Assembly (NCBI GenBank): GCA_963682055.1
Contig: OY821742.1
Span: 22,880,560 to 22,944,559 of the forward strand
Direction of reading: 5' to 3'
DNA length: 64,000 bases
DNA from: Primula veris
Lineage: Eukaryota; Streptophyta; Magnoliopsida; Ericales; Primulaceae
Of this stretch, positions 2,283 to 34,969 are shown piece after piece; within the stretch, counting starts at the first letter, position 1; every line of letters starts with the position of its first letter. A program made the translations under genes and the position numbers. Below the pieces are notes generated by a model, which saw nothing but the letters and a program-made list of their open reading frames with translations, was not told where the DNA came from and searched no databases.

Positions 2283-2850
2283 TGATAAAGCCATAACTTT
2301 GGTCGGTCGCGTTAGGCTTTTCAACAATGATATAATGGTAAATCAACCGTGAATAAAGGATACTTCCTGATCTTTATTATTGCTCGGATTATTGTCCTTG
2401 TTCGGACTATTACATTTGCTCGGATTAGTATTTCTGTTTTACAATTGTACTCGATATGACTATTTAATCTCTCGTCTTGATCTTTCTCCCCTTTTATTCG
2501 GTGCTCGGCTGTCTTTTCTCGGTTTATTTCTCGAAGTGATATGCTTTGGTTAGTTTCTCTCTTTTCTTAACTTCTCTCTATATTTTTTGGATAGATTTTC
2601 TGGTCCTTTTCTAGGAGGGGTAGTTGGCTATTTATAGGCAACTGCGCCTTCTAGGATATTGACAAATGTCTTCATCTCAGAGATTTTTCAGACATGGGTC
2701 CCCATTTGATTGGGCTTGGGCTTTTGGTAGTAACACCTCAATTCCTATAAAAAGTATGAGATGACCCATTTAAACGTTGGATACCCATTTATAAAGTGGG
2801 TTGATTATCACCCGGATAAAATATTCGGGTCTCATTTTTATGTTCTATCA
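2283..2850 (-). repeat. Gypsy 3' LTR (568 bp)
   Basis: Starts TGATAAAG and ends TTCTATCA on the plus strand. A minus-strand TATAAATAG (2629-2637) is the likely retrotransposon promoter box. The same LTR also carries a plus-strand TATAAAAAG (2746-2754) pointing into the antisense gene block. Confidence 0.93.
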
Positions 2851-2860
2851 AGTGCTCCCT
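2851..2860 (-). other. Polypurine tract candidate
   Basis: Minus-strand AGGGAGCACT lies directly against the 3' LTR, where plus-strand DNA synthesis is primed. It is short and not purely purine, so the call rests mainly on position. Confidence 0.45.
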
Positions 2861-3033
2861 GACTTCCTCGGCGTGGTTTCCATGTCGGGGGAGTCATGTT
2901 CGGTTTGTCGATAACGTTACTTCGGTCTTGTCCTTCCCAACGCTTCATCGAGAAACGCAATAGACTTATGACGGTTCCCAGGGGGACACATTTAATGTTT
3001 CCTATCCTAATATATTTCTTCGAGGAAAAATCC

Positions 3034-3040
3034 TATAAAC
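3034..3040 (+). promoter_or_regulatory. TATA box of antisense mini-gene 1
   Basis: TATAAAC 55 bp upstream of the ATG at 3095. Four other small ORFs in this block have a similar box at similar spacing. Confidence 0.55.
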
Positions 3041-3094
3041 GGGTGTGCTCCCTCCATACTTAGACATTTTACTTACTAATTTGCTCGTGACATA

Positions 3095-3415
3095 ATGGCT
3101 TCTTTAGGTTCTACTGGTGAGAGCTCCTTTAATTATATTTCATATTTAGAAACGGAAATCAAGAAATCTCGTACCGCGAATAAGAAGCTCGTGGCCAAGG
3201 TTTCAGACTACAAGAAAAGGTTGTCTAACATGGATTCTGATCATCATGTGACGATGGCCGATCGGGATTGGGCCTACGAGCATATAAAGAAGCTCGAGGC
3301 TAATCTGGCTAAGCAGAAGGCAGCAAAAAGGGCCTATAAGCTTGCCTTCAAGGAGTTGCATGATCGGTCTAAACCGAGTTCGGATGACGATGAAGAAGGC
3401 TCTTCCTCGAAATAA
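3095..3415 (+). CDS. Antisense mini-gene 1: 106-aa coiled-coil protein
   Basis: This 106-aa ORF lies in antisense to the retrotransposon, 245 bp from its 3' LTR. It starts MASLGSTGESS. A charged helical region follows (about residues 15-85, rich in Lys, Glu, Leu), then an acidic/Ser tail (DDDEEGSSSK). The segment KRAYKLAFKELHDRSK recurs in the next ORF as KRAYKLALKEVYARSK, so the two are duplicates. A TATA box (3034-3040) precedes it, and AATAAA (3495-3500) lies 80 bp after the stop. I do not recognise a family; no catalytic or DNA-binding motif is visible. A structural or protein-interaction role through the coiled coil is possible but is inference only. Confidence 0.65.
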   Translation: MASLGSTGESSFNYISYLETEIKKSRTANKKLVAKVSDYKKRLSNMDSDHHVTMADRDWAYEHIKKLEANLAKQKAAKRAYKLAFKELHDRSKPSSDDDEEGSSSK

Positions 3416-3494
3416 TTAGCCTTTTGTAATTTCTGTCGTAATTTCTCTTGAATGGGGAGTCTTCTCCTCAGTTGTAATCGAAGTTTTTAAAATT

Positions 3495-3500
3495 AATAAA
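3495..3500 (+). terminator. Poly(A) signal AATAAA of mini-gene 1
   Basis: AATAAA 80 bp after the stop codon at 3415, in T-rich sequence as expected for a plant 3' end. Confidence 0.5.
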
Positions 3501-3661
3501 ATATTTCCCTTTCCTTGTTCTTGTCTGTTTATCTTCTTGATGTCTTTTTGAATGACTTTAATTGGATTTGGAACTGTGGTTAATTCGCCGTAAATGCTCT
3601 TGGGAAGTTCAAGAGGTTGTATTTATTCGAGATGACCTTTGATCTACTCCTTGTTTCTTCT

Positions 3662-3669
3662 TATAAAAG
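3662..3669 (+). promoter_or_regulatory. TATA box of antisense mini-gene 2
   Basis: TATAAAAG, a consensus-quality plant TATA box, 50 bp before the ATG at 3719. It falls inside the longer frame that begins at 3617, which argues against that upstream start. Confidence 0.65.
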
Positions 3670-3718
3670 GGGACTGTCCCAGTATTCTTTATGCAGTTCA
3701 TTCTTTATTAACGAACAA

Positions 3719-4057
3719 ATGGCTTCTTCTCTTGAAAACTATGGTGACACCCTTCCTGAATACGTTTCCCGTCTGGAAGAGGAAGTTCAGAAGGTGTGTT
3801 ATCTCGAGAAGAGGGTTGCCCGGCTGTCGGTGGAAGCTCGTCGGGCTGCCGAACTAGACGAGCGATTGGATGCCCTAGAGAAGGAGTACCAGAGGTCTTT
3901 GCTCGATAGTATTCGTGCTCGTGCTCGGATCAAAGAGCTCGAGGCCTCCAGAGATAGGCAGCTTGCTTCCAAGAGGGCTTACAAATTGGCCCTTAAAGAA
4001 GTGTATGCTCGGTCGAAAAGGAAGCCGAATGACGAAGCGGGCCCTTCTATGAAATGA
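3719..4057 (+). CDS. Antisense mini-gene 2: 112-aa coiled-coil protein, paralogue of mini-gene 1
   Basis: I take ATG 3719 (MASSLENYGDT) as the start rather than the in-frame 3617, because the TATA box lies between them and the paralogue also begins MAS. Residues 15-95 form a long heptad-rich helix (RLEEEVQKVCYLEKRVARL, LDERLDALEKEYQ), consistent with a coiled coil. The C-terminal KRAYKLALKEVYARSK plus an acidic/Ser end matches mini-gene 1. AATAAA lies at 4119-4124, about 60 bp after the stop. The unit of TATA, short UTR, ORF and poly(A) signal repeats that of its neighbour. Function unknown. Confidence 0.68.
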   Translation: MASSLENYGDTLPEYVSRLEEEVQKVCYLEKRVARLSVEARRAAELDERLDALEKEYQRSLLDSIRARARIKELEASRDRQLASKRAYKLALKEVYARSKRKPNDEAGPSMK

Positions 4058-4118
4058 TTTTATTGTTTTCATTGTATTTCCTCTTTGTGCTTCTTCTGTA
4101 ACGAAGTATCAACCAATC

Positions 4119-4124
4119 AATAAA
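4119..4124 (+). terminator. Poly(A) signal AATAAA of mini-gene 2
   Basis: AATAAA about 60 bp after the stop at 4057, followed by a T-rich stretch. Confidence 0.5.
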
Positions 4125-4599
4125 GATTTCTTTTTCTTGTTTATATCTGAATTACTTTCCCAATGCAATTTATTTTGACTGCGCACGCTTGTGGCCTCAT
4201 TAATGCTTTTCTTGGGCCTTGCGTTTGATCTTATCCATTGGACCTTCTTACTCTTTATATCTAGGGACCAATAGGATTTCTTGAGCCTTGTGCATAAAAA
4301 ATCTTATTCACCAGAGTTTTCTTGAGTTTTGTGCAAAAGATCTGGGATATTTATTTGAACCGCTGCCCTTCCCAAAAATGACGCGTGTTTTGCTGCCATT
4401 ATTACTTACCCCCTTTAAATATTGGTAAGAATCCAAACGTTTCTTGAACAGGAGTGGCTTTTAATTACGCACGCTCTTTAGAGTCTTTTGGGAATCCAAA
4501 CGTTTTTCTTGAACAGACACCTCTTTTGAGTGCCGTCGCTTCTGAATACCCATTGGCGAACGGTTGCGACTCTCAATCCCAGCCCTCATCTAATTGATC

Positions 4600-4607
4600 T
4601 ATAAATA
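4600..4607 (+). promoter_or_regulatory. TATA box of antisense mini-gene 3
   Basis: TATAAATA 92 bp before the ATG at 4692. A second box-like TATATAG (4660-4666) is too close to that ATG to be the main one. Confidence 0.55.
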
Positions 4608-4691
4608 CTTGCTTAGAGCATGGTTACATCCACAATTCTTATCATATTATTTTCCCCCATATATAGACCCTCATCTTATAATTTCCCTAAG

Positions 4692-4985
4692 ATGTCTGGT
4701 CCTTTCACCCAATCAGCATTAGCTTTGCAAGTGGAGGCCTTTGAAGCCTCCTATAACCATGTACAAAGGCTGTTGAGGGATGCCGAGGAGGAATTGAAGG
4801 TGATGCGTTATCACCATACCGAGATGGTTCGGGAATTAACTTGGCTAAGATCCGAACTGGCTTACTGCCGACGTGCTCGTCAGGCTCTAGTCGAAGAGAA
4901 TGAGATGCTAAGGGGGAACCCGACACTGAGGGACAGGGATGTCTCTGCCGGGCTCTCTCATCGATACCGATCGACTTCCCCCTAA
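4692..4985 (+). CDS. Antisense mini-gene 3: 97-aa coiled-coil protein
   Basis: The start at 4692 gives MSGPFTQSALALQ. An in-frame ATG at 4620 is only 20 bp from the TATA box and so probably lies upstream of the transcript start. The MSGP start is shared with mini-gene 4. Residues 10-75 are helical and charged (ASYNHVQRLLRDAEEELKVM, RQALVEENEMLRG), with a Ser/Arg-rich end. There is no AATAAA close behind: the stop is followed by a pyrimidine tract of about 480 bp and then a cluster of GATGTAAT repeats. Function unknown. Confidence 0.6.
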   Translation: MSGPFTQSALALQVEAFEASYNHVQRLLRDAEEELKVMRYHHTEMVRELTWLRSELAYCRRARQALVEENEMLRGNPTLRDRDVSAGLSHRYRSTSP

Positions 4986-5470
4986 CCTTCCCCCTTCTTT
5001 TTTTCCTTTTTCTCTGTTTTTCCCCATCTTTTCCCATCTCTTTCTTTTTCTTCTTTTTATTTCTCAGTTTCCATCATTTCTTCCTCTTTCTCTCTTGTGT
5101 TTTTTTTTATACTCTGTTCTCTCGTACTTTTTATTCTTTTCTTTTCCCCTTTCTTTTTTGTTTCATTGACTTCCTTTTTAGTTGTCTGTCTCCTTCATTT
5201 CTTTATCTTCTTCTCATCTGTTTTTCTTCTGTGCCTCCTCTTTCTTTTTCTTCATCTTCTCTCCCATCACTCTTTTTCTTTTTTTTTTTTTTTTTTTTGC
5301 ACCACTACGATGTTACAATCAGCCCTGTGATCCAAAGGGTTTTGTGTTACATTTAGGGTTGGTCATTTTTCTTTTTGACTCTTCTTTCTTATCACTTCTT
5401 TTCTTGCACTCTTCTTCTTTTCCTCTTCTTGCTTTTCCTTTTTCTTTCTTCTTACTTTTTCTTTTTGGCG
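4976..5470 (+). repeat. Long pyrimidine-rich tract
   Basis: About 490 bp composed almost entirely of T and C on the plus strand (purine-rich in the retrotransposon sense), with T runs up to about 20. It begins at the end of mini-gene 3. Open frames across it encode only Phe/Ser/Leu low-complexity peptides and are not genes. Confidence 0.85.
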
Positions 5471-5536
5471 TCTCCTGCTCACTTGGTCAGCTGATATAGT
5501 TGATCCTTTGCCTGATCTTCTGTACTAGCTCTTCTC

Positions 5537-5650
5537 GGATGTAATAGATCTTTTCGGATGTAATAGGTTTTTATCTCGGATGTAATAGACCTTGATGTAA
5601 CAGACCTCGATGTAATATTGTCTTTTGATGTAATGAACAATGATGTATTC
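5537..5650 (+). repeat. Seven short GATGTAAT repeats
   Basis: GGATGTAATAGA-like units recur seven times at 15-22 bp spacing. Each contains TGTA, the motif of plant far-upstream polyadenylation elements. They lie between mini-genes 3 and 4 and could serve the 3' end of mini-gene 3; that role is inferred. Confidence 0.6.
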
Positions 5651-5921
5651 CATCTTCATTAATGAAAAGTATTTTTGCCCTTTTATTTTTGCATTTCTTT
5701 TTATATTGTACCTGTGGTTTGTTGTTTGTCTGGAATCTAGATCTTTGAATATCTCGTCTTTAATTCTTCTGCACTGTAGTCTCAGATGTCAGTAGATGTC
5801 CCCATCACTGTCAAACATATGTGCATGCTCCCTAGTAGGTCAGGAAATGTGCATGCCCCCAAGCATGTCAGGAAATATGTAATTTCCCAAGCAAGGTCAT
5901 AAAATATCATACTCTCTGTTC

Positions 5922-5929
5922 TATAAGTA
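5922..5929 (+). promoter_or_regulatory. TATA box of antisense mini-gene 4
   Basis: TATAAGTA about 100 bp before the ATG at 6025; a weaker match than the other boxes in the block. Confidence 0.45.
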
Positions 5930-6024
5930 CTTCTCTTTTCTTTGGTAGTTTATCATCTCTTTTTTCTTTTTGCTTCTCTCTTCCTCAGCCCTTTATTTTC
6001 TTCCGTACTAAACAATTTCCCAGA

Positions 6025-6504
6025 ATGTCTGGACCTGTGGTGAGATATCATGCTCAGATGAAGGGCTTGGACACTGAGGTATCTCGGGTCCGCCGTCGGA
6101 TGGCAAGGCTTGAGAAAGAGTATGGCGTTTTGGCCTTGAGCTTGTTCGGCTCTTATCCCGAAGAGACGGTGAAGTGGACCGAGATCTCGGCACTGAGTCG
6201 CCAGCTCGATCACTTGTTGCTACAGAGAAACCATCTGGCCAACTCCTGGTATGATGCCGAGGAAATTTGGGACCATTCTCAAGATGAGTTTGACAACTCT
6301 CCTCAAGGCCTAGCTAGCATAATGGTAAAGAATGCTCGGCTCGTGGAGCGCGTCAGGGTTCTTACTACGGAAAACAACAGGCTCTCCTCGGAGAATGACA
6401 ATTTGGTCGCCATGAACGATTCCTACCAAGCTCGGTTGAATTTTTCTGCTCGTTTTGCTTTCTCTCGGTCTGGCAGTTCGGTTTTTCCACCCATTGATCC
6501 TTAG
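6025..6504 (+). CDS. Antisense mini-gene 4: 159-aa coiled-coil protein
   Basis: The ORF starts MSGPVVRYHAQMKGLD. Two helical segments are visible: residues 10-32 (VSRVRRRMARLEKEYG) and 100-138, where LVERVRVLTTENNRLSSEN has Leu/Val heptads and Asn-rich core positions like a leucine-zipper coiled coil. The middle (40-90) carries W-x-E and H/L-rich stretches. The tail is Ser/Arg/Pro. It shares the MSGP start with mini-gene 3, which suggests another duplication, although the rest has diverged. No AATAAA was found close behind; TGATGAATCAG at about 6564 is only a variant. Function unknown. Confidence 0.65.
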   Translation: MSGPVVRYHAQMKGLDTEVSRVRRRMARLEKEYGVLALSLFGSYPEETVKWTEISALSRQLDHLLLQRNHLANSWYDAEEIWDHSQDEFDNSPQGLASIMVKNARLVERVRVLTTENNRLSSENDNLVAMNDSYQARLNFSARFAFSRSGSSVFPPIDP

Positions 6505-6647
6505 ATTGGGATGGTTTTCTTATGTATTTCCCCTTTTGCCATTTGTGTTTTATCTTCTGTATTTGATGAATCAGTTGTATCTTTTCGTATCTCGTGCTTG
6601 TCTTGTGAACCATTGTAACGCTTCGTACTTTGCGCCTTTTGATTTTC

Positions 6648-6655
6648 TATAAATG
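6648..6655 (+). promoter_or_regulatory. TATA box of antisense mini-gene 5
   Basis: TATAAATG 77 bp before the ATG at 6725. The in-frame ATG at 6653 is part of this box and so is unlikely to be the start codon. Confidence 0.55.
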
Positions 6656-6724
6656 CTCCCTATTGCCTGTATCTCATTACCAATTTCTACCTCTCTCTTG
6701 TTTTATAATTTGCTTTTGCGTGAG

Positions 6725-7087
6725 ATGGCTCCCATCACTAGGTCTGCCTCCAAAAAGAAAACCCTTATGGAAGAGGAGCCTACCTTTTTGCTACCTCGTC
6801 CCCCTAGCTTTGGGGAGGAGGATTTGACTCCTCTTCAACTAAAAGAAATTGAGATGTCATGGCTTAAACATGATCTCATGTGTGCTCGGACTGAAGCGAG
6901 GAGGTTTAAACAATATTGGGACGAAGAGGGCACTGCTCGTTTCAAGGCCGAGCAAAAATGCGAGTCTCAGTCTTACGCCTTGAAACAGGCTGAGATGGCG
7001 ATTTCTCGTTTGGTTAGGGAGAAAGAGCGTCTGGAGGAACTTTTGGCGAAGAGGGATGTTGTTATGGGGGATAGTTTGAAAAAGTAG
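6725..7087 (+). CDS. Antisense mini-gene 5: 120-aa coiled-coil protein
   Basis: The start at 6725 gives MAPITRSASKKKTLMEEE; the earlier in-frame ATG overlaps the TATA box. A basic/Ser N-terminus is followed by LPRPPSFGEEDLTPLQLKEI. A continuous charged helix then runs over residues 40-115 (ARTEARRFKQYWDEEGTARF, SRLVREKERLEELLAKRD). AATAAA (7143-7148) lies 56 bp after the stop. It has the same compact layout as mini-genes 1 and 2. No known domain is visible and function is unknown. The basic start could be a nuclear or nucleic-acid-binding region, which is inference. Confidence 0.65.
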   Translation: MAPITRSASKKKTLMEEEPTFLLPRPPSFGEEDLTPLQLKEIEMSWLKHDLMCARTEARRFKQYWDEEGTARFKAEQKCESQSYALKQAEMAISRLVREKERLEELLAKRDVVMGDSLKK

Positions 7088-7142
7088 GATGGGTGTATTT
7101 TCTTTTTCTGTTGTATTGTTTGTGTTTCCCCCTTTGTGGATG

Positions 7143-7148
7143 AATAAA
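7143..7148 (+). terminator. Poly(A) signal AATAAA of mini-gene 5
   Basis: AATAAA 56 bp after the stop at 7087, with T-rich sequence downstream. Confidence 0.5.
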
Positions 7149-7789
7149 ACTTTGTCTTGCACTTGATTCTGTCCTATTTTATTTTCTGTTTGCTTTACTT
7201 TTATGTTTCTGAGCATACACCGAACAATATGCCCGGTTATCCCCCCGGAGAGCGTTGTTAGACTTGATGCTCCCTGCCATCAAGCTAGAAACGGTCTTCG
7301 TCCACCTTGTTCGGTGTGCCCGTTTGGTAAGGATTGGTTGGGAGTCGAGGAACTTTAATCGGGGGATATTCTCGGTGTGATAGTAGTGGTAGCGTATGTG
7401 GGAAGCTTTTCGTGGTAGGGTCCACTGGCCGTTTATTTAGGTCTAATGATGTGAACTGCCTTGGGTAGTGGGATACGTGCTGACATGGCGAAATCTGGAG
7501 CGTTTATATGTTAAAAAGAGCAGCGGTTGTTGACTTTTGTATGGTTGGAAAAAAAGGTAAACCTCTGTGACACGAAAGGACGGTTATTATTTTATTCTTT
7601 TTGTGACTCCACCCCTTTCTATTGTGCCAAGTAATCCTGTTTTATTTTTATCACAGAATTTGCTGAAGAAAATATCTCTCTCTCTAAAGCATATTCTTCC
7701 CGCCAAAAAGGAAAAGAGTTCGGCCGCTTGATCTAGGGTTTCGTGGTTTTGTTGGAAGACTTGCTGCTGTTCGCGCTTGCTTGCTCATA
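7149..7789 (+). promoter_or_regulatory. Upstream region of the spliced antisense gene
   Basis: No ORF is supported in these 640 bp. The sequence is less AT-rich than the flanks. A weak box (TTATATG, about 7504) is the only TATA candidate. CT repeats (7674-7684) lie near the likely 5' UTR of the gene starting at 7790. Confidence 0.4.
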
Positions 7790-10700
7790 ATGATTACTGT
7801 AAGTGATTTTTCGTTCTCCCCCCTTCCCCCTTTTAGGAGTTGTATTTGATTTGTCGTTGTGGTCGTAGGTGTGTCGTTGGTATATGGTTCAGGTTATCTA
7901 TATATGTCTGATGATTCTTATGTATCTGGTTAATGTGTGTGTGTTGGGGGGGGGGTGGCGCTCGTTATATTGATGTGGTTCTTGTTTGTGTATTTGGTTA
8001 GTATATTGATGGACTTTTGATGATCTTTGGATAGGAAATTTTGACCCAAAGTGTGGCCCAAGTTGGCACATTCGTGGAAAAGGATTTTAAAGAGCTCGCC
8101 GGAATACCCGACAACGTACATATTCGGCTTCCTATTTCTGACGAGGAGGTGCTGGGATTTGTTCCTGCCGGCGAGGTAGCTGTGCGTTCGTCGGCATTCT
8201 TTACTGGGGGTCTTCGACTTCCTTTTACAAATTGGGTGGCCTCGTTTTTTGAGACCGTCCAAATTGCTCCGGCCCAACTGGCCCTAAATGGTTACCGTAC
8301 TCTGAATGGTATCCAAAGGCTATCGGAGTTGTCCGGAATACCGATTGAACTGAAGGACGTCTTTGGAGTCTATAGTTTGAGCTTTGAGCGTCGCAGCTCG
8401 TATTTGAAGACTCTGCGTGCCTTTTGCCGGCTCGTTATCGGTTTGCCGGATACCAACAAAGAGCGTAATCTTGGTATTGTAATTGCTTCTGGTGCATGGG
8501 GTTGTGCGGGACACCAGATTCCTGGACCGGCTACCAATGCTCCCATTATGCCAGACCTCGGCGCTCCCAATGTAGAGGCTCTGTTAGCTCTTTGGAAATG
8601 GTGGGGGCCTGGACCTACGCCGGATCCTGCGAGTCGTACTGCTCCCATGCTGCTCGGTTACCCTATGGGGTCGGTGACCAAGGGGAATCCTGCACCCGAG
8701 ATCCCCAAAGAGCCCGAGGAGGAATTCTTAAAGGTGGTCCGGGCTCGATGTGCTACTCGGCTTGGGAAAAAAGCCGTTCGTTCTAAGCGTCGTGCATCTG
8801 ACCCTGTCGTTGAAACAACGAAGAGGGCTAGGGGAACCGATACATCGGTTACCGAGGAAGATGCTAACGTTGGCTCGGGCGAGGGGGTGTTTGCTGCTTC
8901 CCAAGGGGATACCGCCGAGGATGCCTCTGCGCCGGGCGAGGTATGTGTATATGTATTATGATTTTCTTGTCTTTTGGTTGTTTGTCATTTTGTTCGCTAG
9001 TGCTTTGCTTTATTAGTCATCTTGTTTCAGCTACTGACTTCTCCATTGGTTACCCTCGCTCTTGCCCGGTCTATGGGTATTATTGTGTTTCAGGGGTCGA
9101 TCGACGATGTATTCGGGCATATGAACCTCTTGACTAACATGGGAGAGGGTACGATGACTTTGCCTGTCATCTCGCCTATCCCCACCGAGGATCCGATAGA
9201 TTTGCCCGTTTGCTCGCCCCTCCGTACTGAGGAAGAGTTCGAGCATAGGGCCCCTGAGATTGATCAGTTGGAGGAGGACGTGGGGGTGGAAATGGAAGGC
9301 AGCGAAGAGAATGCCGGGGATGTTGTGACGGGTGTCGAGGATGAGGCTCTCGACGGATCCGAGAAGGTGTTGGTTGACGGGGTTGCAATGACCCGTTACA
9401 TTGACCGATGTAGGGGTGAACTGCTGGAGCAACCGCGAACCTTGAAGATGGGGTATACGGCTCTGAAACCCCTTGTGTTCAAGGATGCAGAAAGACTATC
9501 TGCCCAACCTACAATGTCGGTTATAGAGCAGGCCCACGCGGATGCGCTGAGGGTACGTGGGGCTCGTATTTCGCTATATAGGTCTGGTACTTGTATTTTA
9601 TTTGGAATATAATGTGTTGAAGTGCAGATTGCTGTGAGTACCGTGGCGCTACGGGATCAGCTGGGAGCTCTAGGGGCTGAGAAAGAGAAGCTGGTGGCCG
9701 AGAAGGAGAAATTGGGCGCCGAGAAGAAAACCCTGGGCGAGAATTATGACAAGCTGTCGGTGGACTTTCTGCACCTGACCGAGGATGTTGAGAAATGGAA
9801 GGCGGAAAAAGAGAGCATGGTCGTTAAGTACGGCGAACTAGAGGAGGAGAACTTGCTCCTGGCAGAGGACGTGGAAGCCGAAAAGGCTAAGGTGTCTGCC
9901 CTGAAAACGGCACATGCGGAGGAGCGGACAAAGTTAGCGATGATGGCCAACTTCTCTATATACTGCGCTCATGTGCGGGCGCTCAATTTCGCGAATGTTC
10001 CTTTGTCGGATAGGGCGTGGTCGGAGTTGGTGTATCCGTGTCCGCATGGTGCATCGCCGAAACCCTTGGACTGGGCGAATCTTCGTGAAAAAGAGCTTCC
10101 TCGGCTACCGGGACAGACAATTTCGACAGCGCTGCGTCCTCGCTCTATGTCGGCCCCGTCCACTCCTCGACCGGATGCTACTGTTGTTCCCCCACCAGTA
10201 TCTCCTCAGGTAGAACCTTGACTATCTTTCTAGCAGTATGTTTTTTTTTTTTTTTTTTTTTTTTTTTTGGTCTCTTGTGTATCTAGAAACAGATTCTTTT
10301 GGGGAAGTGATAATATAGGTGCTGTGGTTTCTTTCTGTTGGGCTTTCTTGGGTTAATTTCTTTTGATGGTCGTCATATTTTGAAGGATGTGAAAACAAAA
10401 TATTGTCAGGTACCAAATAACCCCCTTGCCATGGTGGTCTGGACCTCGCCTAGTCGTAGTGTAGGTGACGTAATGGAAGATTTGAAAAGATCTAACGCGT
10501 CCCTGACCGCGAAATTGACTTGTGCTTATCAGGAAATCGAGGGTCTGAATATTCATATTTCCAACTTGGCGATCCGGTTACGTGATTTGGGAGAGAAATT
10601 TAGTAAAAAGACCGCCCATTATATGGCAAATAAGGGTAAAGCAAAGGAACTTCTCGGTGCCCTACGACGTTCTCGTGATGAAGCCCGAGGTCGTGTGACG

Positions 10701-11003
10701 AGCTTGAGCTTGGTCCTTGGGGCCGTTTTCGAGGACGCGGATCTGCTGCTATCCTTTGCCAAAGCGTATTGGGCCCGAGCTCGCGCCTTAGAGGTGCAGG
10801 AGCATATAAAAGGAATGAGTGGTGTGTCCCGGGCAGAGCGCATGGTGGATGCGAAGGCCGGGGTAACTGAAACCACTGTTGCCTTGAACCGAATCGAGGC
10901 GGTCATTCGTGAGCGTTTGGGGACGCAAATTAATTCATTGCGAGATATTCATTTTGCCGATGTAGTAGAGACTTTGGCGTCTGTTGAGGGGTTGTCGGAT
11001 TAA
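7790..11003 (+). CDS. Spliced antisense gene: PF04195-like gypsy-type transposase domain plus coiled coils (about 870 aa)
   Basis: I infer five exons: 7790-7798 (M-I-T, donor GTAAGT), 8035-8940 (donor GTATGT), 9031-9552 (or from 9094; donor GTACGT), 9628-10209 (donor GTAGAA), 10410-11003. Every junction falls between codons (phase 0) and all frames are open, giving about 870 aa. Exon 2 (RLPFTNWVASFFETV, LNGYRTLNGIQRL, LRAFCRLVIGLPDT) resembles the plant putative gypsy-type transposon domain PF04195, known from antisense ORFs of Tat-like elements. Exon 3 is acidic. Exon 4 is coiled coil (EKEKLVAEKEKLGAEKKTLG) with a Pro-rich end. Exon 5 is helical. AATAAA overlaps the stop (11002-11007). The biochemical function of the family is unknown; the transposase name does not rest on a visible catalytic site. 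Confidence 0.72.
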
Positions 11004-11007
11004 TAAA
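11002..11007 (+). terminator. Poly(A) signal AATAAA at the stop of the antisense gene
   Basis: AATAAA overlaps the TAA at 11001-11003. If used, it ends the transcript before the 11101 ORF and makes that ORF separate. Confidence 0.4.
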
Positions 11008-11100
11008 ATAGCTTGTTTTGTCGTTTTCTCTTTTTTTTTTTTTATATTCATCTCTTCTCGTTCTTCTCCCCCCCTCTTTTTTTTATAGGCACATGCTACT

Positions 11101-11739
11101 ATGTCGCACCAGGCTGGTTCTCCATGCCTAGTTAACCCGGGGTTAGGACCTACTGGTGCTGCCCGGGACGAGGTCTCATCTGGTGCGGCTAGTGAGGTGC
11201 CTGACAGGTGGCCCTACATTGTTTTGATGAGCAAAAATGTCAAATTGACCGACCAATGTGCTCGACTGCGGACCAAGCTGAAAACCCAGGCGGCCTCTTT
11301 TCGAGAATACGTTCGCCGTGCCGAGCATGCTGTTGAGGTTCAGGAGCGTCGTTTGGATCGATATTGGCGTGCAAAGGACGAGTACTTCGGCAAATTAAAG
11401 TTGCTTGTGACCAAGGCCAACGTGTTGGTGAAGTATTTCCGTTTGTCCCGTGCCAGATACGATGCTTCCGCAGCTATGATCGAAGCTCGCCGTAACCTCT
11501 CCTTTGACGATGATCGCCGTAAAGCGGCCTCAGATGCTCACGAGTTCGCCAAAGAAGCCGAGTTCAACGCGCGGCTTCAGACGCTGACTTGTGTTGGGGC
11601 TCATACGACCAATTTTGATGCCCTCATTTCTGAGGAGCGTTTTGATGGTGATGAGTCTGATGGGTACACAACGACGGATGACGAAGAGATTGAGCTCGGT
11701 CAATTACCGTCATGCTCCTCCTGCAGTAGCTCTTCTTAA
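11101..11739 (+). CDS. 212-aa helical ORF with acidic/Ser tail; separate gene or alternative last exon
   Basis: Intact ORF starting MSHQAGSPCLVNPG. Residues 45-160 are helical and charged (REYVRRAEHAVEVQERRLDR). The end is acidic then Ser/Cys (DESDGYTTTDDEEIELGQ, then CSSCSSSS). A pyrimidine-rich acceptor (TTTTATAG|GC, exon from 11089) precedes it and is in frame with the ATG. It could therefore be a sixth exon of the preceding gene if a donor such as GGG|GTAACT at 10863 is used; that junction is also phase 0. Equally it could be independent, although no convincing TATA box is seen. No family is recognised. The tail resembles the Ser/acidic ends of mini-genes 1 and 2. Confidence 0.6.
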   Translation: MSHQAGSPCLVNPGLGPTGAARDEVSSGAASEVPDRWPYIVLMSKNVKLTDQCARLRTKLKTQAASFREYVRRAEHAVEVQERRLDRYWRAKDEYFGKLKLLVTKANVLVKYFRLSRARYDASAAMIEARRNLSFDDDRRKAASDAHEFAKEAEFNARLQTLTCVGAHTTNFDALISEERFDGDESDGYTTTDDEEIELGQLPSCSSCSSSS

Positions 11740-12031
11740 ATGAATCTCTTTAGTGTCGATGATCTTCTTGTTGCCTCCGTAATGCGGGCGAGGACTATTT
11801 ATGTTATTTCTTTATTCCTGTTTTGTACCTTTCCATTGCCGTATTGCTATTTAATTGATTGGATCGATTTTTCCTTGCTAAATCATTTGTTATTTCGTTA
11901 TTCCTGTTTTGGAGATGCTTCTTGTTGATATTTTGTTGTTTAGATTGATTCTCCTTCATTGTTTTAGCCAATTTATATTGCATCGCCGCCGTAATGTGGA
12001 CCTGAATAATTCCTTGCATTGTACCTGCATA
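11740..12031. other. Spacer between antisense block and tandem array
   Basis: About 290 bp, T-rich, no supported gene. It may serve as 3' UTR for the 11101 ORF. Confidence 0.5.
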
Positions 12032-13077
12032 TAAATTTCATAGTATTCCTAGGCGTTCCTTCGGTAACACGCCATGTTGGGAATTTCATAGTATTCCTAG
12101 GCACTTCGGCCATGTTGGGAATTTTATAGTATTCCTAGACGTTCCTTCGGTAACACGCCATTTACGGAATTTCATAGTCATCCTAGGCACTTCGGCCATG
12201 TTGAGAATTTCATAGTATTCCTAGACGTTCCTTCGGTAACACGCCATTTACGGAATTTCATAGTCTTCCTAGGCACTTCGGCCATGTTGGGAATTTTATA
12301 GTATTCCTAGACGTTCCTTCGGTAACACGCCATTTACGGAATTTCATAGTCTTCCTAGGCACTTCGGCCATGTTGGGAATTTTATAGTATTCCTAGACGT
12401 TCCTTCGGTAGCACGCCATTTACGGAATTTCATAGTCTTCCTAGGCACTTCGGCCATGTTGGGAATTTTATAGTATTCCTAGACGTTCCTTCGGTAACAC
12501 GCCATTTACGGAATTTCATAGTCTTCCTAGGCACTTCGGCCATGTTGGGAATTTCATAGTATTCCTAGACGTTCCTTCGGTAACACGCCATTTACGGAAT
12601 TTCATAGTCTTTCTAGGCACTTCGGCCATGTTGGGAATTTCATAGTATTCCTAGACGTTCCTTCGGTAACACGCCATTTACGGAATTTCATAGTCTTCCT
12701 AGGCACTTCGGCCATGTTGGGAATTTCATAGTATTCCTAGACGTTCCTTCGGTAACACGCCATTTACGGAATTTCATAGTATTTTTAGGCACTTCGGCCA
12801 TGTTGAGAATTTCATAGTATTCCTAGACGTTCCTTCGGTAACACGCCATTTACGGAATTTCATTGTATTTCTAGGCACTTCGGCCATGTTGAGAATTTCA
12901 TAGTATTCCTAGACGTTCCTTTGGTAACACGCCATTTGCGGAATTTCATAGTATTTCTAGGCACTTCGGCCATGTTGAGAATTTCATAGTATTCCTAGAC
13001 GTTCCTTCGGTAACACGCCATTTACGGAATTTCATTGTATTTCTAGGCACTTCGGCCATGTTGAGAATTTCATAGTA
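12032..13077. repeat. 86-bp tandem array, 12 copies
   Basis: The unit is 86 bp, made of a 48-bp half (with CTAGACGTTCCTTCGGTAAC) and a related 38-bp half (with CTAGGCACTTCGGCCATG). Both start with CATAGTATTCCTAG-like sequence and end with GGAATTT. The 48-bp half recurs at exactly 86-bp steps from 12054 to 13000 (12 copies). Copies are very similar, with small changes accumulating toward the right end. The array follows the pol stop on the minus strand, the 3' untranslated position where Tat-lineage elements often carry tandem repeats that can seed satellites. There are no spacers, so it is not CRISPR. Confidence 0.93.
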
Positions 13078-13182
13078 TTAGTAGACAGCATAATAATATA
13101 TTTCATTCATTCAAAAGAAGAAAGATAATGCCATTAAGCAAGAAGGGTAAGGTAGCACCTGTACTTGTATTCGGAGCATTGC

Positions 13183-15210
13183 CTATACGTAGTACTTCTT
13201 TAAGTTAGCCACATTCCAAGAATTCTTTTCCCCTCGGCTGTTGGCGAACAGGACGCTTTTGATTTTGTAAGAGACTGGACTTGTTTGCTTGACGATTTCG
13301 TATGGGCCTTCCCAGGTAGGGCTTAGTTTGTCGTGTATTTCGTTGCGGGTATAGACCGTCACTCGTCGCAGCACCAGTTCTCCTACCATGAATTCTTTAG
13401 ACCCTTTTACTCTCTTGTCATAGGTTTGCTTTACGCTTTGTTGGTACTTAGCTAGGGTAAGGGCCGCTATCTCTCGTTTCTCGTCTATCATGTCGAGCTC
13501 TTCTCTCATTCTTTGTTCATTATTTCCCTGCTCGACCAACGTCGTTCGGAGTGTGGGTAGCCCGATCTCTGTCGGTATGATGGCCTCAACACCGTATGCT
13601 AAGCTAAACGGGGTTTCCTTGGTGCCCGTCTTGGGTGTAGTTCAGCACGACCATAAAACGTTGAGTAGCCGCTCGGGCCACCTCCCCTTTGCTTGTTCAA
13701 GGGTGGTCTTGATGCCGTCTAATATTGTTCGGTTTGACACTTCGGCTTGCCCGTTTCCCTGTGGGTATGTCGGCGTCGAATAGAACTTTCGGATACCGAG
13801 TTCCTCGTACCACAGCTGTAAATTGGCATCTTTGAACTGGGTTCCGTTGTCGGCGACTATAGCATACGGTATACCGAACCTAGTTATGATGTATTCCCAA
13901 ATGAATTGTTTGACGTTGCTGGCTTTGATTTCTCGGAGGGTTTTAGCTTCGACCCATTTGGTGAAATAATCAGTCGCAACGATAAGATATTCCACATTCC
14001 CAGGTGCCCTTGGGAGTTTACCGACCAAATCAATTGCCCATTGAGCGAACGGCCATGGTGCTGATACCGGGGTCATCATAGATGAAGGGAGCCGTGGTAT
14101 CTTGGCGAATCGTTGGCACTTGTCGCATCGTTGGACGTATGCATCGGCGTCTCGCTTGATATAGGGCCACCAATATCCTTGGGTCACTGCCTTGTTTGCA
14201 AGGGATCGCCCTTTGATGTGTGCTCCGCAAGATCCTTCGTGGATTTCCTCCAAGACCGGCAGTTGTAGCTCGGTCGGGACGCACAGTAGATGTGGTCCCC
14301 GGTAACTGGATTTGTATAGTTTATCGTCCTCGGATAGCCAGAAGCGAGAAGCTTTTCTTGTAATTTTCAGCGCTTTTATCTTGTCGACCGGAAGCGTCCC
14401 ACTTCGCAGATAATGGGTCATGTCCTCCATCCATCCTAATTCGTATTGTATCGATGTCACCCGGTTTACCCTTTTTATTATGCTCGGGGTCGGCAGTAGT
14501 TCCACTGTGATCGACCGGGTGTCGGTCAATGTTAATGTCGAGGCTAGGGTGGCCAATGCATCGGCATGTGCATTCTCGGTGCGATTGATTCTTACTAACT
14601 CGCACTGTTCGAAGGTTGCCATCAAGCTTTGGACTTTCTCTTGGTAGAGGATCATTCTATCATCTTTCGCTTGGTACTCGCCGATGGCTTGATTGACGAT
14701 GAGCATGGAGTCTGAGCTTGCAATTAAGTGGGAGCATCCGAGGGACCGGGCAATAAGCATGCCATTTATCATGGCCTCGTATTCTGCCTCATTGTTGGTA
14801 GCTCGGAAGCCCAGTTTTATGCTTTTTTCGATGATTGCTCCCTCTCTAGACTTTAGGACGATCCCTGCTCCTGATCCGTCCTTGGTGGCTGATCCGTCGA
14901 CATGTATCTGCCAGTGTGATTGTGGAGAGAGTGCCAAAGGCTCGTCATAGCCTTCGGTGAATTCTGCGACGAAATCGGCCAGGACTTGTCCCTTTATGGC
15001 ATGGCGGGGTGCGAACTCGATATGAAATTGGGATAGCTCGACCCCTCAGGCGGCAACTCGGCCGCTAATGTCCGTCCGTCGAAGTGACTCTTTAATATGA
15101 AATTTTGTGTATACCCGGACCTGATGAGCTATGAAATAGTGTGGCAACTTCCTGGTTGCGACGACCAATGCCAGGCACAGCTTTTCCAAGGGTAGATAAC
15201 GTGTTTCGGC
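13183..15210 (-). pseudogene. Gypsy RNase H and integrase, with stops
   Basis: The longest open piece (13642-14937, 431 aa) holds a second, plant-type RNase H (IHVDGSATKDGSGAG near residue 11, NNEAEYEAM near 48, ASSDS near 73). It continues with the integrase zinc domain (HEGSCGAH to CDKC, about 233-275). The catalytic core follows, with Asp in WAIDLVGKL, Asp in VADNGTQF and Glu in GQAEVSN. A stop at about 13642 separates the C-terminal part (13183-13539, GELVLRRV to ANLKKYYV). Further stops lie at about 15050 and 15211. The stop contexts suggest C-to-T or G-to-A transitions, as expected from deamination of methylated DNA. The RNase H before integrase supports Tat placement. No functional polyprotein can be made from this copy. 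Confidence 0.88.
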
Positions 15211-16236
15211 TTAGACCAGAGTCTTGCTGACGAAGTAGATCGGAAATTGTTCGCGACCTTCTTCTCTTAGGATGACCGCGCTCACAGCTGTAGCGGAAAC
15301 TGCTAGGTAGCATGCCAGAATGTCTCCTCTGTTCGGCCTTACTAGCAGTGGCAATGTCCTTAAGTACTCTTTGAGATTGTTGAATGAAGCTTCACATTCC
15401 GGGTCCCAGACGAATTTTCTATCCTTCTTGAGTGATTCGAAAAATGGCCGTCCCTTATCTGCGGATCGGCTAATGAACCTGCTCAGCGCGGCCATCATTC
15501 CCGTGAGCTCTTGTACCTGTTTCTTATTCTTGGGCGCTGCTAGGTTTCGTAGAGCCGTTATTTGATCGGGATTAGCCTCTATTCCTCGTCGGCTAACCAT
15601 ATGCCCCAAGAATTTCCCTTTGCTGATGCCAAATGCACACTTGCTCGCATTGAGTTTCAGTTTGTGCTCGCCCAGCGTTCGGAAAACATCCCTGATATCT
15701 TGCAGGTGGGATGTGGCTCTTTCGCTTTTGACGACCATGTCGTCTATGTATACCTCCATCGTCTTCCCTATATGATCTCGACATACTCTTGTTATCATCC
15801 TTTGGTATGTTGCTCCCGCATTGCGTAGGCCGAACGGCATTACCGTATAGCAATAATTTCCCAAAGGTGAAAGTGGTCAAGGAAGGTCAAGGAAGGTCAT
15901 CCGTTCGCGGGCGAGGGGAATTTGATGGTATCCTGAATATGCGTCAAGGAAGGTCATCCGTTCTGCCCCCGCAGTTGCGTCCACCAGTTGATCAATCCTC
16001 GGAAGGGGAAAGTGGTCCCTCGGGCAGGCTTTGTTGAGGTTTGTGAAGTCTATACATACTCTCTCCTTCCCGTTCTTCTTAGGGACGACAACCGGGTTGG
16101 ACAACCATTTTGGATAGTAAACCTCTCTTATGGCTCCAGCCTCCAATAACTTTTGTACTTCAGCGATTATAGCTGCTCTGTGCTGTACAGACACCTTCCT
16201 GGCTTGTACTCGGTGTTTACACTTAGGTGGTGGCAT
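15211..16236 (-). pseudogene. Gypsy reverse transcriptase with native RNase H start, frame broken
   Basis: The first piece (15877-16236) has LLEAGAIREVYYPKWLSNPV and IDFTNLNKACPRDHFPLP, the fingers and palm of Ty3/gypsy RT. The second (15211-15864) has MPFGLRNAGATYQR, the catalytic VYIDDMVVKS motif, then FVSKTLV at the start of RNase H. A frameshift separates gag-pro from RT near 16195. A locally duplicated insertion (about 15878-15962, the same 20-nt block at both ends) breaks the frame between the two pieces. A stop at 15211 closes the second piece. The family call is secure; the copy is inactive. Confidence 0.9.
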
Positions 16237-19094
16237 GCCGTATTGGGGTCTAGGCCCGGCATATCTTTAGGACTCCAGGCGAATTTATCAGTGTTGTTGA
16301 GAAGGAATGCTTTCAACTCCTCGGATTCCTGTTTTGGAAGGTTGTCGCCGAGGAGGAAGTAATGCTCCTCGTCCATATCTGGTATATACACCCTCCTGAG
16401 TGTCTCTCCTACTTGTTCTTCGACAACCCTTTCGGCTTTGGATATTTGGTTGATCAGCTTCTTGGTGCTGGTGGGTTGTTCCACCATGCTTCGTTGTTTT
16501 TGGAGAGTCGCGGTGATGTCCTCGTAGCGTCTTGAATCCTCGTGACAGCCTCTGGCTGTCTCGATCTCTCCCCTGTCATTTGGGTATTTGACCTTTTGGT
16601 GATAGGTTGAGGGTATGGACTTCATGGCATGTAACCAAGGTCGGCCCAATATTGCATTGTGACCGGAGTGGTCATTAACCACTAAGAACTCTACGGGGAC
16701 CGACACGGACGCGGTTGTGACACTGAGGACGATCTTTCCCAATGGTTTAGTCGTTTCGGAGATGAATCCGATCAGCGTGACGTCCGCAGGCTGTAGATCT
16801 TGCAGCTTGAGTTCCATTTTGTCGAAGAGCTCCCTGTACATGATATCACAAGAGTCTCCTTGGTCGACAAGTACCCTGCTGACCGTGTCTAGGCCAATTT
16901 GAACTCGGAGGTTAATGGCGTCTCCATGGGGGTAAATCACCCCTTCTTTGTCAAGATCTGAGAAAGAAATGGGCGGATGTCGTCGTTGTGTGCACTGTCG
17001 TTTAGAGGTCGACGCCTGTGATGCCTTGGCTACTTGGCCAAAGTGGGCCAGCTGCCGTTGTCGCGACCGTTCCCCACCGGGGCCCTCGGGTCGTGACATA
17101 TGAACGACGTTGATTGTTTTACCTTGCCGGTTGTCGGATCCCTCGACGGCCAATTGTTTGCCTTTATTCCCAGCTCCTTTGATGAACTTGGCTAGGTATC
17201 CTGCATCGCCCCACTGGTTCATTCTCCATCGCAGGTTACGGCAATGCTCAGTGAGATGGCCGTGATCCTCGTGATATGCGCAGAAGAGCTTGGAATCTCT
17301 CTGATTGGGGGGAGAGATGATCGGTTGTGGTCGGGAATACCAACTTTCCCTGCATATATCCTTGAGGATATCTTCAGCAGATAGGTTGAAAGTGTATCGC
17401 AACTCGACCGGTCCGAAGGTGTTTCGGTGTTCCCTCTCTTGGGGCCGAACTTGTTGAAATGGCTTGGGTGGCATCGGGTAGGTGAGCTGGAGCGGTTTAT
17501 GTTCGTTGGTCGGTGTTGGGTATGCGATCTGGAGCGGTTTGGGCTCTAATGCTCGTGGTCGCTCTACCCTGCTATGGACCTCGGGCTCTTTGCCCTTTCT
17601 GGTCGGTTGGAATGCTTCTCCCTGGTTATTTCTAACTCTTTTGCGACCCACCTGTGCCTCGCGGACCGACTCTCTTCTCGGTAGAGTTCGGTTGAGGAAA
17701 CGCAGTTCGTCGTTTTTATCGGTGAGGTGGGTACAATAGGCTAGCAGGGAATCAGTGGTCGGGAAGTTTTTGCCTATGAACTTCCTTCTCGTCCAATAGC
17801 CATTAGGGATGGAATTGATAAAGTTTTGGATGGCTATATTATTGGCATATCGTGGAATCTGGTTTGCTACGTCGATAAAACATATGCAGTAATCGTTGAG
17901 CCTTTCATTTGGCATCATCGCCATTTTAAGAAGGGTTTCGATACTAACCTTCTTTTTTCGATGAGCAGCGTATCGGGTGGAGTATGCTCTTAGCAATTCT
18001 GCCCAGTTTCTAATGGAGCCCCATGGTAAGTTATGATACCATGACGAAGCCTCTTGACCCAAGCTGTTTTTGAAAAATTTGCACATCAGTGCATGGTCAT
18101 CACTCCACAGTTCCATCTTCGTCTTGTAGTGCCTCAGATGGTCGATAGGGCAACTCTTCCCATCATAGAGCCTGAATTCGGGGATGACGAATCCCATAGG
18201 ATTGCGGTACCGCGTGATCTGTTCAGCACACGGGGTTTCTTGGCATACGTTCCAAGCCTGTTGGAACGCGTCATCCGTGACTTGGTAGGGGGGAGGGTAT
18301 CCTCCCTGATGTGGTGATGGGCCATATCCTTCCCCGATCCTGTATTCGGGATATCTACCGTCCTTCGTGTTTGGGTGGACACGTTCCATATGAGTGTTCG
18401 GATGGACGATAGTTATTGGGATATTGCCCCCTTGGTGGGGGACTCTTGTATCGGGTCGCCGACCCGCTGCCTCCAGGGCGGCCCTGTAGGCAGAATCTTC
18501 CACTTCATGGCGTGGGTCTTTGTCGGGTTGGATAACTGGCAATACGATGTCGGCCGCTGTCATGGCCGTCATGCATGCCGCCAGCTGAGCTTGTAGCTGG
18601 GCGTAGTTCCTTTCATCGGCTAATGGAACAACATGTTGCACCTCCACCGTGGGTGGTGTAATCACCCTCGGAGAATTAGTCGGTAGTCGGGGCGACTGTC
18701 CGAGTACATGATCCTCGGGCATGCCAAACTGATGAGCTTCGCCCGTTTGTAAACGAGCACCGGAGTTGACCGAGGCTGTAGGCAAAGGGACTCTTGAGCT
18801 CGGCCCTGCTTGGGACCCGGTTAAGCGTCTTCGTGCACGCCTTAATACGGGCACGTCTTGTTCGTCCTCTGACGACGAAGGGTGTTCGTCGACAATCCCT
18901 TCGATGAAACGTCGGGGTGGATCGACCGGTTGTTCTTGGTTGACGTAGGAGGTTGTTGGTTGGTTTCCGGATTGGATAGCTTCATATCTGTCGCGGATGG
19001 CGAGTAGATCGTCGAGGTCTTGTTGGCTAATTTGCGTGTTTTGGTTATTGGTTTCTATTATCTCGGGATGGGTTTCCTCTACATTGGTAACCAT
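16167..19094 (-). CDS. Gypsy Gag-protease ORF (975 aa open)
   Basis: The ATG at 19094 lies only about 60 bp downstream of the primer site. After a charged N-terminus, the plant retrotransposon gag domain runs over about residues 320-480 (CKFFKNSLGQEASSWYHNLP, LLKMAMMPNERLNDY). A CCHC-like knuckle follows (FCAYHEDHGHLTEHCRN). The aspartic protease has VDQGDSCDIM at about residues 743-752 and ILGRPWLHAM at about 809-818. In this lineage D-Q/T-G-S/A is usual, so the GD here may be a damaged or variant active-site flank. The frame runs to the start of RT and shifts near 16195. This is the only long gag-pol part still open. Confidence 0.88.
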   Translation of the reverse strand: MVTNVEETHPEIIETNNQNTQISQQDLDDLLAIRDRYEAIQSGNQPTTSYVNQEQPVDPPRRFIEGIVDEHPSSSEDEQDVPVLRRARRRLTGSQAGPSSRVPLPTASVNSGARLQTGEAHQFGMPEDHVLGQSPRLPTNSPRVITPPTVEVQHVVPLADERNYAQLQAQLAACMTAMTAADIVLPVIQPDKDPRHEVEDSAYRAALEAAGRRPDTRVPHQGGNIPITIVHPNTHMERVHPNTKDGRYPEYRIGEGYGPSPHQGGYPPPYQVTDDAFQQAWNVCQETPCAEQITRYRNPMGFVIPEFRLYDGKSCPIDHLRHYKTKMELWSDDHALMCKFFKNSLGQEASSWYHNLPWGSIRNWAELLRAYSTRYAAHRKKKVSIETLLKMAMMPNERLNDYCICFIDVANQIPRYANNIAIQNFINSIPNGYWTRRKFIGKNFPTTDSLLAYCTHLTDKNDELRFLNRTLPRRESVREAQVGRKRVRNNQGEAFQPTRKGKEPEVHSRVERPRALEPKPLQIAYPTPTNEHKPLQLTYPMPPKPFQQVRPQEREHRNTFGPVELRYTFNLSAEDILKDICRESWYSRPQPIISPPNQRDSKLFCAYHEDHGHLTEHCRNLRWRMNQWGDAGYLAKFIKGAGNKGKQLAVEGSDNRQGKTINVVHMSRPEGPGGERSRQRQLAHFGQVAKASQASTSKRQCTQRRHPPISFSDLDKEGVIYPHGDAINLRVQIGLDTVSRVLVDQGDSCDIMYRELFDKMELKLQDLQPADVTLIGFISETTKPLGKIVLSVTTASVSVPVEFLVVNDHSGHNAILGRPWLHAMKSIPSTYHQKVKYPNDRGEIETARGCHEDSRRYEDITATLQKQRSMVEQPTSTKKLINQISKAERVVEEQVGETLRRVYIPDMDEEHYFLLGDNLPKQESEELKAFLLNNTDKFAWSPKDMPGLDPNTACHHLSVNTEYKPGRCLYSTEQL

Positions 19095-19154
19095 TGTCGC
19101 TCGTCTGGCAGAGTATTGGTATTCGAATTCTAAACTAGTTGGGAACTAGATGAT

Positions 19155-19173: not shown

Positions 19174-19740
19174 TGATAAAGCCATAACTTTGGTCGGTCG
19201 CGTTAGGCTTTTCAACAATGATATAATGGTAAATCAACCGTGAATAAAGGATACTTCCTGATCTTTATTATTGCTCGGATTATTGTCCTTGTTCGGACTA
19301 TTACATTTGCTCGGATTAGTATTTCTGTTTTACAATTGTGCACGATATGACTATTTAATCTCTCGTCTTGATCTTTCTCCCCTTTTATTCGGTGCTCGGC
19401 TGTCTTTTCTCGGTTTATTTCTCGAAGTGATATGCTTTGGTTAGTTTCTCTCTTTTCTTAACTTCTCTCTATATTTTTTGGATAGATTTTCTGGTCCTTT
19501 TCTAGGAGGGGTAGTTGGCTATTTATAGGCAACTGCGCCTTCTAGGATATTGCAAATGTCTTCATCCCAGAGATTTTTCAGACATGGGTCCCCATTTGAT
19601 TGGGCTTGGGCTTTTGGTAGTAACACCTCAATTCCTATAAAAAGTATGAGATGACCCATTTAAGCGTTGGATACCCATTTATAAAGTGGGTTGATTATCA
19701 CCCGGATAAAATATTCGGGTCTCATTTTTATGTTCTATCA
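19174..19740 (-). repeat. Gypsy 5' LTR (567 bp)
   Basis: Near-identical to 2283-2850: I count four substitutions and one single-base indel. It carries the minus-strand TATAAATAG at 19520-19528. CCAAG at 19741-19745 is the right target duplication. Confidence 0.93.
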
Positions 19741-20025
19741 CCAAGATTTTTTGAGACTGCCAAATTTTATCAATTTTTTCCAAAAATACTCTTATATTTT
19801 TTTATTAATTACCACAATACCATATTCTCATAAAAAATAGAGAAAAAGTAATAACTAATAACACTTTTTATCCCTATTTAAGCTCTCAAAATTCTTTTTA
19901 GTCTTCTCATCTTATACTCTTATCTTTTTTTTTATTCTCCAAATATTTGTATCATAACTACACTTATTTTCTAAATTTTATCGCATTACGCGTCTCACAC
20001 GCAAAGCGTGGGGCACGATTACTAG

Positions 20026-34695: not shown

Positions 34696-34969
34696 ACAAA
34701 AAATGAAAAAACTCAAAATATTTAGAAAAAAATAAAAAAAAATCCAAAATTTTTTTAAAAATTATAAAAATAAAAAAAAAAATTTGGAAAAAATATAAAA
34801 AATTCTAACAAAAAAATAAAAATCCAGAATTATTTAAAAAAAAGGGAATTTTTTTAAAAAATTAGACAGTTTGGAAAAAAATTAAAAAATCCAAAAAAAA
34901 TCCAAAAAAATCCAAAAAAATCTTCTTCTTTAGAAAAATTTCAAAAATACAAAAAAAATAAAATTCAAT

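Follow-up and report, generated by a model that had tools for sequence, protein, structure and literature searches.

Antisense open reading frames (ORFs) located after pol are considered a hallmark of the Retand lineage of long terminal repeat (LTR) retrotransposons (PMC11963269). A survey from 2025 reported 104 antisense ORFs with a minimum length of 600 bp across 63 Retand clusters, and TRP28-coding antisense ORFs, for which a DNA-binding role was predicted, in 97% of the recently active clusters (PMC11963269). For gene23 of the Grande element of maize, a separate promoter and a product located in the nucleus have been described (PMC7264820). Retand elements can be highly abundant: copy numbers of 15,904 and 4,800 are cited for maize and Silene latifolia, respectively (PMC11963269). 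Here, we analyzed a stretch of 64,000 nucleotides of Primula veris (contig OY821742.1, positions 22,880,560 to 22,944,559 of the forward strand; referred to as the window), which includes an element that is likely of this type. Between its integrase and its 3′ LTR, five compact units (u1 to u5) were found on the plus strand, that is, antisense to gag-pol, followed by a predicted TRP28-like gene and a 212-amino acid (aa) ORF. The reading that we favor, to which we assign a probability of about 0.5, is that the units are likely coding mini-genes that form an antisense array beside the TRP28-like gene, and that their products, mostly predicted coiled coils, would associate with one another and regulate the element in trans from within the nucleus.

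The domain order suggests a Ty3-gypsy element of the Retand/Tat type. It is a complete insertion on the minus strand, spans 17,458 bp, with an internal region of 16,323 bp, and is flanked by a 5 bp target site duplication, CCAAG, at 2278-2282 and 19741-19745. Profile matches revealed the order gag, RT, RT_RNaseH_2, RVT_3 (PF13456), Integrase_H2C2 and rve. We infer that the PF13456 domain corresponds to the additional RNase H that Ogre and Retand elements are reported to carry between RNase H and integrase, a second RNase H ahead of the integrase being shared with Retand (PMC6317226). The frame bearing gag starts no more than 30 bp from the 5′ LTR, and the element has the Retand feature of antisense ORFs between pol and the 3′ LTR; together, the opening of the gag frame near the 5′ LTR and the antisense ORFs after pol indicate Retand. 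On the sense strand, no ATG-initiated ORF in the 9 kb that extend from the 86-bp tandem array to the 3′ LTR is longer than 119 aa.

A previous interpretation of this stretch (the sequence-only reading) had proposed a row of compact antisense ORFs opposite to gag-pol. The orientation was correct, but the units do not overlap gag-pol; they sit beyond pol, toward the 3′ LTR (Table 1). Within 2851-7790, the plus strand has six [CT]TATAA[AG] boxes; five of them precede the ATGs of u1 to u5 and the sixth lies inside u1. A TATA box had been predicted 50-100 bp before the start of each ORF, and the ORFs had been sized at 91-159 aa; a box was indeed present in all five cases, at a slightly wider range of distances (57-103 bp), and the upper limit of the sizes was confirmed, while the lower one was corrected to 97 aa. 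In 2851-7790, AATAAA was found at three plus-strand positions, each after a stop codon (at 80 bp for u1, 62 bp for u2 and 56 bp for u5), in agreement with the three units for which a distance of 55-80 bp had been given; the minus strand of this region has 13. Longer forms initiated at an in-frame ATG are available for u2 (141 aa), u3 (121 aa) and u5 (144 aa). Nevertheless, the shorter starts fit better, given that the ATG of the longer form is located upstream of the box in u2, only 20 bp past it in u3, and overlaps it in u5.

Table 1. Features of the element and of its antisense array (positions are those of the window)
Feature	Position	Strand	Details
u1	3033-3500	+	TATA-like box 3033; ORF 3095-3415, 106 aa; AATAAA 3495
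u2	3661-4124	+	TATA-like box 3661; ORF 3719-4057, 112 aa; AATAAA 4119
u3	4599-4985	+	TATA-like box 4599; ORF 4692-4985, 97 aa (121 aa from ATG 4620); without AATAAA
u4	5921-6504	+	TATA-like box 5921 (CTATAAG); ORF 6025-6504, 159 aa; without AATAAA
u5	6647-7148	+	TATA-like box 6647; ORF 6725-7087, 120 aa; AATAAA 7143
Predicted spliced TRP28-like gene	7790-11003	+	Exons 7790-7798, 8035-8940, 9094-9552 (or from 9031), 9628-10209, 10410-11003
212-aa ORF	11089-11739	+	ATG 11101; 216 codons open from acceptor-like TTTTTTTATAG
86-bp tandem array	12034-13086	not assigned	12.2 copies, adjoins the end of pol
gag-pol	13183-19145	-	gag, reverse transcriptase, RNase H, second RNase H-like (PF13456), integrase; five separate stop-to-stop pieces
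3′ LTR	2283-2850	-	568 bp, TG..CA ends; 99.1% identity with 19174-19740
5′ LTR	19174-19740	-	99.1% identity with the 3′ LTR

The TATA and AATAAA signals are short motifs and the region is T-rich, conditions under which the five units could be open frames arisen by chance. This explanation is contradicted by the number of ORFs: in 2851-7230, the plus strand has five ATG-initiated ORFs of at least 90 aa, the mean in dinucleotide-shuffled sequences was 0.51, and five were reached in none of the 500 shuffles. The minus strand of this region has two such ORFs, and the remaining window (19746-64000, 44 kb) has 21 on both strands, some of which are exons of real genes. The placement of the signals also contradicts it: when signals were distributed at random over the non-coding part 100,000 times, the value observed for TATA was never reached, that for AATAAA was reached 387 times, and both were never reached together. 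A box at 50-112 bp upstream was found for 1.6% of the 183 other ATGs in 2963-13100. Considering also the paralogy of two of the units and the relatives found in the database, both described below, chance frames were rejected as an explanation and we regard them as extremely improbable. The same four lines of evidence bear out the proposal of a row of compact antisense ORFs.

The proteins encoded by u1 and u2 are paralogous (alignment score = 145, z = 21.3, 0 of 200 shuffles), and the block that they have in common, around KRAYKLA(F/L)KE, is basic and has an acidic tail. Their nonsynonymous divergence (dN, by NG86) was 0.61 and the synonymous one (dS) was 2.6, which is saturated, with a proportion of synonymous differences (pS) of 0.73. 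When only the DNA was aligned, 38, 25 and 43 mismatches were observed at codon positions 1, 2 and 3 (of 87, 87 and 88, respectively). No other homologous pair was detected by protein comparison among the five units, and a tblastn search of the units against the window revealed no decayed extra copies. One weak match among the 45 pairs tried, that of u3 with the 8035-8940 exon of the TRP28-like gene (z = 4.0, 2 of 200 shuffles), was not accepted as real. The flanks of u3 and u4 showed a weak similarity, reached in 2 of 300 shuffles for the 5′ flank and in none of 300 for the 3′ flank; this is only suggestive because the 3′ flank is T-rich and the shuffles did not preserve dinucleotides.

In a protein search, full-length relatives were obtained for u1 (P0003, 95.3%), u2 (P0004, 94.6%), u3 (P0006, 99.2%, matching the 121-aa form) and u5 (P0005, 95.8%). 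Two relatives were found for u4, P0001 (98.1%), which starts five residues later, and P0002 (79.9%). None of the five units differs in length from its relatives over the compared stretch; even at 79.9%, u4 and P0002 keep the start, the stop, the length and the last 15 residues, and vary at residues 115-126. The longest contig listed for P0003 and for P0006 is of 5,397 bp in each case, be it one contig or two. Related elements were not found in viral contigs with five queries, nor in contigs of prokaryote genomes with one pattern and one query. A single long spliced gene running across all units was discarded, since every unit is closed by its own stop and the last residue is in the same place in the relatives. 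From this evidence, u1 to u5 are likely to be compact protein-coding units. It could be argued that the antisense RNA itself is functional, either regulatory or as a source of small interfering RNAs (siRNAs), and not the proteins, a role that has been put forward for antisense ORFs (PMC7264820). The conservation of protein lengths, starts and stops, the preservation of the u1 and u2 proteins in spite of saturated synonymous sites, and the heptads described below speak against it, and we give this possibility very little credence.

Downstream of the units, the larger antisense gene is predicted to be spliced, as four GT-AG junctions (ACT|GTAAGT, GAG|GTATGT, AGG|GTACGT and CAG|GTAGAA) were found by manual reading to be all in phase 0. 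By arithmetic on the predicted, unjoined exons, its product would be of 849 aa. The sequence-only reading had described a spliced gene resembling PF04195; the in-phase junctions support the splicing, while the match to PF04195 in the 8035-8940 exon was weak (E = 0.011; 16.4 bits, with the cut-off at 26.2; positions 3-58 of the 69 in the profile). The ORF at 10431-11003 is probably the last exon of this gene rather than a separate gene. The 212-aa ORF, also listed in that reading, was present at 11101-11739. The segment that contains it could represent a sixth unit or further gene, or an alternative last exon. The only plus-strand AATAAA in 7791-12000 is located at 11002, where it overlaps the stop codon that closes the last exon, which makes a further gene more likely; the acceptor-like tract that precedes the segment speaks for the exon. 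Five ORFs from this block were used as queries, and full-length relatives were found for three: P0007 for the 212-aa ORF (99.5%), P0008 for 10431-11003 (95.3%) and P0009 for 9073-9612 (89.4%).

The propensity of these proteins to form coiled coils was evaluated with a self-devised heptad score, compared with 300 shuffles of each sequence (60 for the gag and integrase frames). The scores of u1, u3, u4 and the 212-aa ORF were above those of all shuffles. For the exons of the TRP28-like gene, the score was reached by 7 of 300 shuffles (9631-10209), 9 of 300 (10410-11003), 55 of 300 (8035-8940) and 151 of 300 (9094-9552), and for the controls by 37 and 66 of 300 (the two minus-strand ORFs), 7 of 60 (gag frame) and 9 of 60 (integrase frame). 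The AlphaFold model of u1 consists of one helix spanning residues 4-92, with a predicted local distance difference test (pLDDT) value of 84 from four sequences, and that of u4 of three helices (pLDDT 71, three sequences). Thus, the coiled coils attributed earlier to all these ORFs are predicted, as such or as long helices, for most units and weakly for u5. Pfam matches were weak and under the cut-off for u1 to u4, and none was obtained for u5. Patterns resembling a nuclear localization signal (NLS) were present in u1 and in the TRP28-like exon, and a loose bipartite one in u2.

Small proteins with long helices, and the basic block with an acidic tail of u1 and u2, would also agree with units that are accessory parts of a virus-like particle or pre-integration complex, in which the coiled coils bind Gag or nucleic acid, instead of regulators. 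The virion-associated protein of caulimoviruses offers a comparison for such a role. However, promoters that oppose the genomic RNA would uncouple the supply of these parts from that of Gag, no Pfam match exceeded the cut-off, and u4 gave no significant fold match; hence, this role seems unlikely to us.

If the units encode regulators of the element, as we favor, RNA polymerase II would start at the TATA box of each unit and transcribe it in the direction opposite to the genomic RNA, and owing to these boxes the supply of the units would be independent of LTR transcription. The array may have grown by duplication inside the element, clearly in the case of u1 and u2 and possibly in that of u3 and u4. 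The small proteins would oligomerize among themselves and also bind the coiled-coil portion of the TRP28-like protein, a protein which would provide the DNA contact and the entry to the nucleus, by analogy with gene23 of Grande and with HBZ of human T-lymphotropic virus (HTLV). Reading the units as accessory genes is based on the fact that antisense ORFs are a Retand hallmark, TRP28 is predicted to bind DNA, and a promoter and a nuclear product have been published for gene23. Antisense transcription bears as well on a different role, in which the coiled coils would sequester a host silencing factor and thus act as suppressors of host silencing. Among the silencing suppressors of plant viruses, several are small proteins with coiled coils. 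In addition, it has been argued that antisense transcription can yield double-stranded RNA and siRNAs that target the element (PMC7264820). The lack of a Pfam match above the cut-off counts against suppressors, which we consider quite unlikely.

Several observations weigh against the regulatory array that we propose. Regarding coding, the excess of third-position mismatches between u1 and u2 reached only p = 0.06, and the proposed frames were not consistently favored when codon usage was scored with gag-pol as the training set. The database in which the relatives were found contains open frames only, and seven of the nine have identities of 94.6-99.5% and may be other copies of one family. Regarding the promoters, the TATA placement test is partly post hoc because the pattern was written once the boxes had been seen; a box at 50-112 bp upstream was found for 8.9% of all positions in 2963-7230, and no TATA-like box is present within 120 bp of the start of the TRP28-like gene (7790). 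The protein search gave no relatives of the 8035-8940 exon of this gene, nor of 9631-10209. At the protein level, the heptad score was reached by 8 of 300 shuffles for u2 and by 18 of 300 for u5, and no NLS-like pattern was found in u3, u4 or u5. The Foldseek comparison of u4 with the PDB gave 507 matches at E ≤ 10 and none at E ≤ 0.001; the ING-family dimerization domains among them (probability 0.90-0.98, E = 0.38-1.6) are a non-significant lead only. Finally, gag-pol is broken into five separate stop-to-stop pieces in this copy, and the broken pol weakens the case for its activity.

Compared with the Retand elements of the 2025 survey, this one shares the position between pol and the 3′ LTR, the antisense orientation, the frequent presence of more than one ORF, a predicted TRP28-like protein, and a tandem array in the region; it differs in its longer region, in five extra units of less than 600 bp, in a TRP28 match under the cut-off and in a gene predicted to be split by introns (PMC11963269). 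Its internal region (16.3 kb) and its pol-to-3′ LTR region (10.3 kb, by arithmetic) fall outside the surveyed ranges of 7.4-12.9 kb and 2.9-6.6 kb, which are descriptive and do not define the lineage; the maxima given in that survey are 12,869 bp for the former and about 6.6 kb for the latter (PMC11963269). This excess length, and the location of the array between pol and the LTR, could suggest that genes of the host were captured or that a foreign insertion is nested in the element. However, captured genes are reported to be usually sense to gag-pol (PMC7264820), no Pfam family was matched above the cut-off, the array contains an internal duplication, and its position is typical of the lineage, so we judge a capture very unlikely. 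Grande gene23 has in common with the array proposed here an antisense location in a long 3′ internal region and an upstream promoter, which in our case is predicted from the boxes; for gene23, promoter activity and nuclear localization are reported, and a single gene is described (PMC7264820). Here, five units, the TRP28-like gene and the 212-aa ORF are present.

More distant parallels can be drawn with regulators of other elements, in which the likeness is one of analogy. HBZ is a leucine-zipper protein, and VANDALs are DNA transposons, unlike the element described here. HBZ and APH-2 of HTLV (named in PMC11963269) are antisense accessory regulators of a retroelement; several units are present in our case, with internal promoter-like boxes instead of the 3′ LTR, and no homology was seen, although no search was aimed at it. 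The VANC proteins of VANDAL elements are anti-silencing nuclear proteins that act in trans and are encoded by elements with tandem repeats (PMC10398659; PMC5735166). A VANC-like target motif was considered and rejected, as a comparison of the 86-bp unit with the LTR, the spacers and the leader revealed no common 10-mers and no excess of 8-mers.

The presence of more than one antisense ORF per Retand element, and of TRP28, was already known; the novelty lies in five units below 600 bp standing in a row, each with its own box. The sequence-only reading had cited antisense ORFs as singletons, which the survey counts given above contradict, and had found a serial array unfamiliar; in agreement with the latter, no report of a serial array of short antisense units was found in the literature searched, which left out most subscription papers. 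Overall, its interpretation was partly supported. The 2025 survey considered ORFs of at least 600 bp, and shorter ones only if they had TRP28 (PMC11963269), and a survey from 2019 used a cut-off of 250 codons (PMC6317226); both would have skipped u1 to u5, since 97-159 aa falls under both limits. A broader interpretation is that, through duplication within the element, at least five to seven antisense accessory genes have evolved, each transcribed on its own, a set reminiscent of retroviruses; their coiled-coil products would form one multi-subunit trans regulator, and they would have been missed because annotation cut-offs remove antisense frames of this length. This interpretation is tentative and in our view doubtful. 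If it is true that elements carry whole sets of small antisense genes, a class of proteins encoded by them has been concealed by the cut-offs of 600 bp and 250 codons. The array provides concrete candidates that can be tested, and could help to account for the maintenance of the long pol-to-LTR region.

Other sequences were noted within the array. The promoter-side spacers of u3 and u4 contain short direct repeats (4429-4505 and 5819-5876, with GAATCCAAACGTT twice and a 28-bp unit in 2.1 copies), which are possible regulatory sites. Between u3 and u4, the tract 4990-5500 is strongly T/C-rich and is possibly a long 3′ untranslated region or a decayed spacer. Elsewhere in the window, direct repeats at 21204-22539 and 27404-28677, about 6.2 kb apart and 87.6-88.4% identical, resemble LTRs that belong to an older element. 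Degenerate repeats of 21-22 bp, built around GACAATCTAATA and T runs, fill about 1 kb at 34935-35939, and 43931-44130 matches its own reverse complement (200 bp at 90%), perhaps as a small inverted-repeat element. Likely exons of an ABC transporter gene are found at 57080-61741, where 57080-57451 matches ABC_tran and a 494-aa ORF (60257-61741) contains ABC2_membrane.

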